Part shown: positions 2,764 to 59,977 of the stretch, in pieces
Numbering within the stretch: position 1 is the first letter of the stretch
Layout of the letters: each line of letters starts with the position of its first letter
Assembly (NCBI RefSeq): GCF_003781945.1
Contig: NZ_RJJW01000013.1
Location: 1 to 64,000 of the forward strand
Length of the DNA: 64,000 bases
Direction of reading: 5' to 3'
DNA from: Halorubrum sp. CSM-61
GTDB lineage: Archaea; Halobacteriota; Halobacteria; Halobacteriales; Haloferacaceae
Notes under the pieces: generated by a model
Databases searched by the model: none
What the model saw: only the letters and a program-made list of their open reading frames with translations
What the model was told of the DNA's origin: nothing
Translations under genes and position numbers: made by a program

Positions 2764-3378
2764 ATGAGCGACGATATCCCGGCTCCGGTCACGCCGGAGC
2801 GTCCGGACGCACCGTTCCACACCACCGGCACCGATCACATCACCGTCTGGGGGAGCAACGAGGCCGACACGATCGCGTTCTACCGCGACCTGCTCGGCAT
2901 GCCGCTCGTCCTCCGTCAGCCGAACCTCGACGACCCCTCGCAGACGCACCTGTTCTTCGACACCGGCGACGGGCGCATCCTGACGTTCTTCGTGAGCGAC
3001 GACCGCCCCTCGGCCCGCGGTCAGCGCGCCGGCACCGGCGCCGTTCACCACCTCTGTTTCAGCGTCGACCCCGACGAGTACGAGGACATCATGGCGGCTC
3101 TCGAGGAGGCCGGCAAGGGGTACAACGTGTTCGACCGCGGGATATTCCACTCGATCTACACCCAGGACAACAACGGCCTCGTCATTGAGCTCTCCTCGGA
3201 CAAGTACGAGATCCCGGACGACCGCAAGGGCGAGGTGCTCGCGACCGCCCAGCGCATCCGCGAGGAGGACGGGGCCGACTTCGCGCAGGACCGCCACATG
3301 GAGGCCGCCTTGGAGGAGCTCGGACTGCCGGTGAACAAGTACGACCTCCCCGACGCGGACGCGGGCGTCGGCGTATGA
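2764..3378 (+). CDS. VOC-family (glyoxalase/ring-cleaving dioxygenase-like) protein
   Basis: The 204-residue protein has the vicinal-oxygen-chelate fold signature. The first half contains HITVWGSNEADTIAFYRDLLGMPL, the second AVHHLCFSVDPDEYEDIMAALEEAG, followed by FHSIYTQDNNGLVIELSSD. Candidate metal ligands are His in DHITV, His in HHLCF and Glu in VIELS. It overlaps the downstream esterase gene by 4 nt (ATGA), so the two are translationally coupled. A dioxygenase plus carboxylesterase pair recalls bacterial MhqO/MhqD quinone-detoxification genes; that role is inference. Confidence 0.85.
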   Translation: MSDDIPAPVTPERPDAPFHTTGTDHITVWGSNEADTIAFYRDLLGMPLVLRQPNLDDPSQTHLFFDTGDGRILTFFVSDDRPSARGQRAGTGAVHHLCFSVDPDEYEDIMAALEEAGKGYNVFDRGIFHSIYTQDNNGLVIELSSDKYEIPDDRKGEVLATAQRIREEDGADFAQDRHMEAALEELGLPVNKYDLPDADAGVGV

Positions 3379-4124
3379 GCCGGGGATCGCCGCACGCGGG
3401 CGACGACCCGCACGCGGGCGAGCCGCTGGTGACGGCCGGAACCCCGGTCGACTCGGCGGACGCGGCCGTCGTCCTCGTCCACGGTCGCGGCGCGACCGCG
3501 CGAAGTATCGTCGAGTTCGGGGAGCAGATCGCGGGCGACGGCGACGTCGGGCTGTCGCCGGCGGCTTCGCCGCCGGCTGCCAGAGAGACCTCCGGTCTCT
3601 CACTACTCGCCCCGCAGGCGGCCGCCAACACCTGGTACCCGAACTCCTTCCTCGCCCCCGTCGCGGACAACGAGCCCGGCCGGAGTTCCGGACTGCGGGC
3701 GGTCGGCCGAGCGGTCGCGACCGCGACGGACGCGGGGATTCCCGCCGAGCGCGTCCTTATCGGTGGCTTCTCGCAGGGCGCCTGTCTCGCGAGCGAGTTC
3801 GTCGCGCGGAACCCGACGCGGTACGGCGGGCTCGCGGTCCTGAGCGGCGGGCTCATCGGCGAGTCGATCGACCTCGACGACTACGTCTCCCACGCCGCGG
3901 CCGAGACCGACGGAGACGCCGCCGACGCGCTCGCGGGAACGCCGGCGTTCCTCGGCTGCAGCGACGTCGACCCGCACATCCCCGAGGAGCGGGTCCACGA
4001 GACCGCCGAGGTGCTGGAGGCGCTCGGCGCGGACGTTGACGAGCGGATCTACGAGGGGATGGGTCACGGGATCAACGAGGAGGAGACGGACGCCGTCGCC
4101 GCGCTGGTCGCGGACCTGGCGTAG
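3375..4124 (+). CDS. Alpha/beta-hydrolase, phospholipase/carboxylesterase family, with in-frame repeat insertion
   Basis: The 249-residue esterase contains VLVHGRGA (oxyanion-hole region), the nucleophile motif GFSQG (Ser133), GCSDVDP (probable Asp199) and GMGHG (His231), a complete Ser-Asp-His triad of the dienelactone hydrolase/MhqD-like group. Residues 61-75 (SPAASPPAARETSGL) are encoded by a palindromic DNA unit (3555-3601). Remembered homologues run almost directly into the LLAPQAAxNTWYPNSFLAP segment, so this is probably an in-frame insertion in a surface loop. The gene overlaps the upstream VOC gene by ATGA. Confidence 0.88.
   Translation: MSRGSPHAGDDPHAGEPLVTAGTPVDSADAAVVLVHGRGATARSIVEFGEQIAGDGDVGLSPAASPPAARETSGLSLLAPQAAANTWYPNSFLAPVADNEPGRSSGLRAVGRAVATATDAGIPAERVLIGGFSQGACLASEFVARNPTRYGGLAVLSGGLIGESIDLDDYVSHAAAETDGDAADALAGTPAFLGCSDVDPHIPEERVHETAEVLEALGADVDERIYEGMGHGINEEETDAVAALVADLA
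3555..3601. repeat. Palindromic double-hairpin unit inside the esterase gene
   Basis: Two adjacent hairpins occur here: GCCGGCGGC-TTC-GCCGCCGGC, then AGAGACC-TCC-GGTCTCT. The first 29 nt are identical to 38072-38100 inside repeat copy B. The following hairpin differs from the one there only by compensated base changes (AGGGACC/GGTCCCT). It keeps the reading frame and adds about 15 residues to the esterase. Confidence 0.75.
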
Positions 4125-14179: not shown

Positions 14180-14747
14180 TACCGTGGGACTCGCAGGCGA
14201 GGTGATTAAAAGACGCGGAGCGATCGCGAATACGTGTGATACAGTTTCGGCCGTTGCGGTGTGGTCGACTCGGTCGACCGTTTATAAGCGGTTGCTGGTA
14301 GATCGACGGTGAACACCTTCAAAGCCCCAGCCGGTCGGCAGTACGTGATCGGCTCCTCCGCGATGACTACCTCCAAAGCCCCAGCCGGGAGGCCGACGTA
14401 CGCTCGCTGTCGTTCGAAAGGCGCGGAGCGCCTTTCGTGATGACGAGAGAGCTTCGCTCTCTCGAACCACGCGCTTCGGTCGCTCGCGGTGCTCGCTCCC
14501 TGCAGTGCTTACGTCGCCTGCGCCGGCCTCCCGGCTGCCCCTTTGAGTCCCACCCGCACCGCACAGCACCTCTCACCTCCCCAGCCTCGTCGGTGGTCCT
14601 CCGCTTCGCTCCGGACCACCGACTCCCTCGCGCGTGCTCCTCGCGGCCTGCCGGCCGCTCGGAGGCACGCGCCACCGCCTCGTTCATTTATAAATAGCCG
14701 TGGCGATCGCTGTCGTCGTTTATAAGCAAAATCCCGCTCGCGCCCGT
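14180..14747. other. Gene-free 568-nt stretch holding repeat copy A
   Basis: No credible protein gene is seen. Translations here are the recurrent pseudo-peptides of the structured repeat. The stretch is occupied by repeat copy A (14281-14696) and several TTTATAA boxes, including CGTTTATAAGC near 14720. Confidence 0.7.
14281..14696 (-). ncRNA. Structured repeat, copy A (putative non-coding RNA)
   Basis: Read on the minus strand it starts at a TATA box (ATTTATAAATG, 14684-14694). A hairpin GTCGGTGGTCC/GGACCACCGAC (14589-14599 with 14613-14623) follows, then the conserved core GAGGCTGGGGAGG and GGGTGGGACTCAAAGGGGCAG. Next is a 12-bp perfect stem (14524-14535 with 14384-14395) and the closing block CGGCTGGGGCTTTGGAGGT. 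The closing block occurs twice here (about 14314-14333 and 14367-14385). Two extra triloop hairpins (GAGAGAGC-GAA and CGAAAGGCGC-TCC) sit inside the apical part. The same architecture with different stem sequences recurs in copies B and D. Confidence 0.7.
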
Positions 14748-37838: not shown

Positions 37839-38165
37839 ATAAATGGCTACCGACGGATCGACGGCGGACACTTCCAAAGCCCCAGTCGTTGAGGCGGGCG
37901 CACGCTCGCTGCGGTCCTCAGTCGGTCGCTACCGCTCCCTCCTTGCGGTCCTTGCGTCCCCTGCGCCCGCCTCAACGACTGCCCCTTTGAGTCCCACCCG
38001 CAACTGCACAGCACCTCACGCCTCCCCAGCCTCGTCGGTCGCCTGCGGCGACCGACTCCCTCGCACCGGCGTCGCCGGCGGCTTCGCCGCCGGCTGCCAG
38101 AGGGACCTTCGGTCCCTCGCGGCTCGCGGCCCAGAGGACCGCTCGCCGGGGCGCGCCATTTATAC
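37839..38165 (-). ncRNA. Structured repeat, copy B (putative non-coding RNA)
   Basis: On the minus strand it begins at a TATA box (GAGTATAAATGG) immediately after the vapC stop codon. A palindromic double-hairpin (38072-38119, shared with the esterase gene) follows, then the GTCGGTCGCC-GCA-GGCGACCGAC hairpin (38034-38056) and the core GAGGCTGGGGAGG / GGGTGGGACTCAAAGGGGCAG. A 17-bp perfect stem follows (37963-37979 with 37885-37901), then the closing block CGACTGGGGCTTTGGAAGTG. The stem sequence differs from those of copies A and D but is fully paired. Confidence 0.7.
38072..38119. repeat. Palindromic double-hairpin unit within copy B
   Basis: The first 29 nt are identical to 3555-3583 in the esterase gene; the second hairpin is AGGGACC-TTC-GGTCCCT, a compensated variant of the one there. 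It adds an extra arm to repeat copy B that copy D lacks. Confidence 0.7.
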
Positions 38166-40245: not shown

Positions 40246-41610
<1,365 letters not shown>

Positions 41611-41734: not shown

Positions 41735-41850
41735 TTACTCGAGGGACTCCGTCCCTCGCTGGACGCGGTGAGCGCTCGGAGAGCGCGAACCGCGAGGCTG
41801 GGGAGGTGTGAGGTGCTGTGCGGAGTGGAACTCAACGCCCACCCGGAAGG
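41735..41850 (+). ncRNA. Structured repeat, copy C (5' part only)
   Basis: On the plus strand it has a GAGGGAC-TCC-GTCCCTC hairpin and an imperfect hairpin CGCGGT...GCGCTC-GGA-GAGCGC...ACCGCG (41764-41794). The conserved core GAGGCTGGGGAGGTGTGAGGTGCTGTGCGG (41793-41822) follows. The sequence then leaves the family consensus, so the large stem and the CTGGGGCTTTG block are missing. Confidence 0.5.
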
Positions 41851-59550: not shown

Positions 59551-59977
59551 ATATCGGGAGTGGGTATTGCAGATCGGTGGCGGCGAGAGAGTATTAAAAC
59601 GACCGAGAGCGACGGCGACGATCGCTTATAAATGACGTGCGGTGGCGCGTGCCTCCGAGCGGCCGACAGGCCGCAAGGAGCACGCGCGAGGGAGCCCGCG
59701 GCCGCGGCGAGGCTGGGGAGGTGTGAGGCGCGGTTGCGGCGTTGTGCGGGTGGGATTCAAAGGGGCAGCCGTGAGGGCGGCGCAGGCGACGCGAGCACCA
59801 CAACGAGGGAGCAACGCGACCGAGTGAGGAGCGCGGCGAGCGTGCGCCGCCCTCACGGCTGGGGCTTTGCAGGTCTTCACCGCAATACCGTCGATCACTT
59901 ATAAACAGCCGCCAGCAACACCACTCGATCGCTTATAAACAACCGATCAACCAATGTGCTATACCCACTCCCGCTAT
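59551..59977. repeat. Imperfect 21-bp inverted repeats bracketing copy D
   Basis: Positions 59551-59571 (core CGGGAGTGGGTAT) and 59957-59977 (core ATACCCACTCCCG) are inverse complements at 19 of 21 positions. They enclose copy D completely, like terminal inverted repeats of a small non-autonomous element, although similar ends were not found around copies A and B. Confidence 0.6.
59620..59940 (+). ncRNA. Structured repeat, copy D (putative non-coding RNA, reference copy)
   Basis: On the plus strand it starts at a TATA box (CGCTTATAAATG). A long first hairpin pairs GCGCGTGC with GCACGCGC, with GCGGCC-GACA-GGCCGC at the tip. A palindrome CCGCGGCCGCGG (59696-59707) precedes GAGGCTGGGGAGG. Then comes GGGTGGGATTCAAAGGGGCAG, followed by a perfect 15-bp stem (59769-59783 with 59844-59858) and CGGCTGGGGCTTTGCAGGT. 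CAAAG-GGG-CAG opposite CTG-GGG-CTTTG extends the stem with a symmetric GGG/GGG internal loop. Confidence 0.75.

Follow-up and report, generated by a model that had tools for sequence, protein, structure and literature searches.

The window, a stretch of 64,000 nucleotides from a Halorubrum genome, carries an Abhydrolase_2 esterase gene whose GFSQG motif is intact. Its reading frame contains a short double-palindromic segment that recurs in a composite non-coding repeat, copy B, elsewhere in the window (Table 1). The original prediction had reported this match, and its sequence and coordinates proved correct on direct reading. The identical stretch, given there as 29 nt, is indeed shared with copy B and runs to 32 nt (3554-3585 against 38071-38102). 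Hairpin 2 differs between the two copies by the compensated pair that had been described (AGAGACC/GGTCTCT against AGGGACC/GGTCCCT) and also by a loop change (TCC/TTC).

Table 1. Features of the esterase gene, the palindromic unit and the composite repeats in the window
Feature	Position	Strand	Basis
Esterase gene, Abhydrolase_2, 249 aa, carrier of the insertion	3375-4124	+	ORF; Pfam PF02230, E = 3.1e-17
51-nt in-frame insertion TCGCCGG...CACTA, residues S61-L77 (17 residues)	3555-3605	+	Empty site in orthologues
Hairpin 1: GCCGGCGGC TTC GCCGCCGGC	3557-3577	+	Fold of 3545-3615
Linker TGCCA between the hairpins, resembling a CCA tail	3578-3582	+	Direct reading
Hairpin 2: GAGAGACC TCC GGTCTCTC	3583-3601	+	Folding; compensated pair against copy B, read directly
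Copy B, a composite non-coding repeat from whose relatives the unit probably came	37870-38155	+	Dispersed family; no Rfam match
Unit copy within copy B, AGGGACC form	38072-38122	+	100% query match
Related composite, right end approximate, with an empty junction (GTGCTC^CTCGCG, 14634-14647)	14476-14700	+	blastn in window; junction pattern
Related composite without the unit at junction GTGCTC^CTTGCG	59639-59882	-	blastn in window and reading
Conserved composite fragment in a further divergent copy	41789-41821	-	94% identity over 34 nt (blastn)

An inserted segment in an esterase gene

The unit consists of two unlike hairpins in a fixed order, and head-to-head dimers are not seen. Stems are of 9 bp with a 3-nt loop or of 8 bp with a 5-nt loop; the first stem pair is G-C (A-T in some distant copies) and the second C-G. 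The segment 3545-3615 folds strongly, at -40.5 kcal/mol as RNA (z -4.3) and with a z of -3.7 as DNA. The linker recurs as TGYCA or TTCCA in copies from this genome and from other families, in a tally whose pattern required CA. Most species have TTC as the loop of hairpin 1; in the esterase inserts of three genomes (G028, G032 and G016; loci L023, L025 and L028) this loop reads GAA, the reverse complement, or a GAA/GGA-like form, as a flip or an exchange of the hairpin tip would produce.

Sequence comparison identifies the esterase segment 3555-3605 as a derived, in-frame insertion of a dispersed double-palindrome unit. An esterase orthologue was found in 43 of 52 Halorubrum genomes. The insert is present in 12 of these and missing from 31, where the exact empty site is GCG-CTC^CTC-GCG. 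Outside the genus, 22 orthologues from other haloarchaeal genera were examined; two fell outside the reading pattern, and the insert is missing from all 20 that could be scored. The expectation that most orthologues, including distant haloarchaeal ones, would be without these residues was thereby borne out. The predicted extent, residues 61-75, was in frame and slightly too short, since orthologues give 51 nt and residues 61-77. Insert lengths in esterases are 51, 48 and 39 nt, each divisible by three, and hairpin 1 is shortened in G019 and G042. In several filled genes the codon to the left of the insert is CTG, ATC, GTC or GTG, not CTC.

The closest solved relative (PDB 4h0c) has about 7 residues where the esterase has about 25, and the inserted segment is absent from it. 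In an AlphaFold2 model with a mean pLDDT of 91.6, the insert falls in a loop of low confidence that joins helix 42-53 to strand 75-80; pLDDT is below 50 at residues 56-61 and 64-67. The insert would occupy a loop modelled as disordered within an otherwise confident fold. Among the 12 filled esterases, divergence is 0.10 at codon positions 1 and 2 against 0.28 at third positions, and the esterase outside the insert is, judged from sequence, under purifying selection. Within the insert, third-position divergence is 0.127 against 0.28 for the rest, lower than in any of 208 windows of the gene. At 0.93, the ratio of positions 1 and 2 to position 3 in the insert exceeds that of every one of the 208 windows, so codon-level constraint on the insert looks absent.

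Composite repeats and the dispersed unit

Composite repeats related to copy B are the usual home of the unit. At least six scored copies per genome were found in all eight Halorubrum genomes sampled, with partial matches in other haloarchaea. Within the window, Rfam covariance models matched 5S rRNA and three tRNAs at the gathering score and nothing else; copy B, which the original prediction had treated as an RNA, has no match and is at most a putative RNA gene. The composite repeat, of which Table 1 lists four copies or fragments, is marked by a paired CAAAGCCCCAG...CTGCCCCTTTG stem and a CAGCACCTCACNCCTCCCCAGCCTCG core. It is very abundant, strongest in Halorubrum, and modular, with exchangeable hairpins and TATA-like boxes nearby, and may represent a family of RNAs or mobile elements not yet described. 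In genome G003, one composite (L209, 1400-2050) contains many successive hairpins with short linkers, CTAGCAG and GACGACAT, as if units had inserted recursively into one another. A separate repeat in the window (40757-41539) comprises three tandem direct repeats of 261 nt, with 79% and 61% identity to the first; 261 nt is a whole number of codons, and these are therefore probably repeated protein domains.

About 37-49 copies of the unit are present in this genome. A 66-nt query from copy B gave 49 whole-genome matches, the esterase copy among them at 89% identity (E = 1.6e-15), and a 23-nt core for which shuffles predict 0.03 matches in the window was observed twice. The predicted recurrence of the core, across this genome and many others, was thus confirmed. 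The AGAGACC form occurs in 16 of the 52 genus genomes (reversed-pattern control, 0), and the exact AGAGACC pattern is restricted to Halorubrum in a collection of 84,980 species; no match to the unit was found in the plasmid collection. In other haloarchaeal families the double-hairpin unit occurs alone, apparently in intergenic DNA, with a CGTC tag and a CCA-like linker (L240-L257).

The original prediction was right that a repeated, palindromic unit inhabits non-coding repeats and also a protein gene whose frame stays intact. A spread into many genes, as in Rickettsia palindromic elements (RPEs), was not found. With calls based on sequence signatures, TATA-like boxes and codon-position bias, 36 of the 37 distinct copies in this genome lie in non-coding DNA, nearly all of them bearing signatures of the composite repeat, and the esterase copy is the sole coding one. 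Among 44 distinct copies sampled from other species (eight genomes screened), the coding ones are esterases only, and the other flagged loci are intergenic. Several candidates for further coding copies were rejected: L228 lies downstream of, and outside, an unrelated 469-aa ORF; L209 is the nested composite described above; and large ORFs spanning composite copies either have no haloarchaeal codon-position bias or place the unit close to the ORF edge.

Filled and empty composites differ by exactly the unit, at the junction GACTCCCTCGCGCGTGCTC^CTCGCGCCC and with no target duplication. A duplication of CTC was rejected because CTCCTC is native to the empty sites. The junction consensus, GYGCTC^CTCGCG, is the same as the empty site of the esterase, which in some unfilled orthologues extends up to GCGCTC^CTCGCGCC. 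Empty junctions occur in 50 of 52 genomes, often tens in each, with reversed-pattern controls near zero. Across the composite insertion junctions the left flanks vary (GCTC, GAGG, GCAG, GGCG), and the other junctions share no target word. This 3.7-Mb genome has 51 sites of the form GYGCTCCTCGCGSC (reversed control pattern, 19); arithmetic from the site count puts the chance of a random insertion landing on one at about 7 in a million. Either flank similarity or an enzyme recognising the junction would therefore have guided the insertion; the flank match leans towards similarity but is compatible with both. Each of the 11 distinct AGAGACC-type units found at this junction in composites measures 51 nt and has no stop in any of the three forward frames, which makes insertion in this orientation frame-neutral. 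The sequence GCGCTCCTCGCGCC is proposed for a reporter that would trap new insertions.

Origin and spread of the insert

The insert is patchily distributed on the esterase tree: parsimony needs 8 changes, where shuffled data need 10.8 on average. One filled allele, that of G048, sits among empty relatives with 96-99% support. The codons flanking its insert are among the least like those of its own clade and nearer to filled alleles, which is what a short conversion tract would leave, although the signs of recombination tracts are only suggestive. Variants seldom found in composites recur among the esterase inserts (p about 0.008 when relatedness is ignored), which argues for a common origin of these inserts. 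No AGAGACC-type donor is now present in this genome, so we infer the donor event from other species. This history suggests one or few insertion events, followed, we infer, by spread and loss via short-tract recombination.

The reading that we consider probable, if not strongly so, is a rare, flank-guided transfer of the unit into the esterase, with short-tract spread and loss of a tolerated passenger. A filled composite would have passed its unit to the esterase on one or a few occasions, through microhomology, short gene conversion or an enzyme recognising the junction, and without target duplication. The filled allele would then have moved between species and later been lost by short-tract recombination. 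The insert would be tolerated because it is 51 nt long, has no stop in any forward frame and lies in a surface loop; it looks like a passenger, and no protein-level function is indicated. Set against this account are the shortness of the junction match, up to 14 nt, the lack of a present AGAGACC-type donor in this genome, the left codons other than CTC in several filled genes, and the several losses or transfers that a single insertion needs on the tree. Part of CTCGCG, moreover, belongs to the conserved tail of the unit in distant relatives, so the true insertion boundary is uncertain.

The main competitor holds that the unit is a genuine mobile element of REP, PATE or MITE type, mobilised in trans by a putative transposase or recombinase with a preferred target, and that it entered the esterase by transposition, possibly several times. 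We regard this as a serious possibility, though unlikely. It would accommodate the solitary units in several other haloarchaeal families, the presence of the unit at several different composite junctions, and the lack of target duplication between filled and empty sites, a trait also of IS605-related PATEs and of SMRs. No transposase is linked to the unit, however, and the single Y1 gene of this genome is without unit-like ends; the lack of a common target word at the other junctions is a further difficulty, and the uncommon variants common to the esterase inserts weigh against repeated independent insertion. Selection on the hairpins of the esterase mRNA or DNA, for instance for translation pausing or regulation, appears improbable. 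The folds are strong, 96.5% of base-pair cells are kept among the esterase inserts, one pair in G021 is altered on both sides, and third-position divergence is low. Yet pair statistics within the inserts are no higher than in shuffles, hairpin 1 is shortened in two genomes, and most species have no insert; these comparisons give no evidence that the hairpins or the insert are under selection for a role.

Less probable still is an ancestral segment of the esterase, precisely deleted in the lineages without it and passed from the gene to the composites. Patchy presence would fit such a history, and the shortened inserts of G019 and G042 show that deletions occur. It has to contend with the segment's absence from every readable orthologue outside the genus and from most within it, with units in the intergenic DNA of other families, and with repeated units in the composites of genomes whose esterase is free of the insert. 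Chance similarity can be set aside almost entirely. Short palindromes are abundant in a GC-rich genome such as this, but the genome-wide E value of 1.6e-15 and the 0.03 core matches expected in the window refute it, as do the reversed-pattern control, which is zero in 52 genomes, and the exact empty site in orthologues.

Relation to known palindromic repeats

Enzymes into which dispersed palindromes have inserted in frame are known in Rickettsia and in some other bacteria, and the unit in the Halorubrum esterase is a rare archaeal counterpart of those protein-invading palindromes. A literature search, mainly of open-access papers, found no description of the Halorubrum repeat, and the genus is absent from the main text of a REP survey covering archaea (PMC12306157).

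The CGTC-tagged REPs of bacteria, which include Rickettsia RPE-4 and RPE-6, have a CGTC tag (variants TGTC, CCTC), an 8-9 bp stem with a loop of 4-5, A-T pairs at stem positions 1 and 2 and an unpaired CCA tail. Head-to-head dimers predominate; copies are mostly intergenic, with some in frame within genes, and no dedicated transposase is known (PMC3733652). The Halorubrum unit is likewise a short palindrome with a stem of 8-9 bp, a CCA-like tail, an intragenic copy and no known transposase, and part of its copies carry a CGTC or TGTC tag. The tag position reads TGTC in the window copy; of 8 scored copies from other genera, 7 have CGTC and one has TGTC; 68 Halorubrum loci include CGTC (10), TGTC (9), TCTC (27), AGTC (12) and GGTC (8). 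The tail reads TGCCA in the window and TGTCA, TGCCA or TTCCA in most copies, again under a tally pattern that required CA. Unlike these REPs, the unit is archaeal, has neither the A-T pairs at stem positions 1 and 2 nor head-to-head dimers, and comprises two unlike, ordered hairpins that are nested in composites and found in one gene.

The PATEs of Haloquadratum walsbyi have terminal-only forms of 52 bp, with palindromes near their ends and no target duplication, and the SMR-A elements of the same species are transposase-free and prefer other repeats as insertion sites; in the available part of that account, no in-frame gene insertion of either was found (PMC3119063). As described there, both resemble the Halorubrum unit in being haloarchaeal, short, palindromic, transposase-free, without target duplication and nested in repeats. 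The unit has palindromes near its ends and no target duplication in filled and empty composites and esterases alike, and it inserts into composites as SMRs do. It differs in that no IS605-type ends are linked to it (the ends of the single Y1 gene in this genome are unlike the unit), its left flanks vary where PATEs have a fixed target word of 4-6 nt, and its own ends, TCGCC...CACTA, form no SMR-style terminal inverted repeat on direct reading. With these REP features missing and no PATE-type ends, the unit is therefore filed as a member of neither group; by analogy, it appears to work like CGTC-tagged REPs and PATE/SMR elements.

RPE-1, of about 150 bp, occurs in dozens of Rickettsia genes (PMC10969869). 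Both it and the Halorubrum unit are palindromic repeats of non-coding and coding DNA that sit in frame at a tolerated position, and here the unit is 51 bp long and confined to one gene, with 1 of 37 copies coding rather than many insertions in unrelated genes. A bolder and rather unlikely extension would unite these copies in a haloarchaea-wide family of CGTC-tagged double palindromes, frame-neutral in its Halorubrum form, with a mobilising activity of its own, nested in repeats and occasionally in protein genes, as an archaeal counterpart of REPs and RPEs. The locus points to a little-described and very abundant modular repeat system in haloarchaea. It also comes with natural controls: across 43 species the esterase exists in filled and empty alleles, and the donor repeats, too, occur filled and empty at the shared junction. 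How new protein segments arise from repeat DNA and then spread is therefore testable here.
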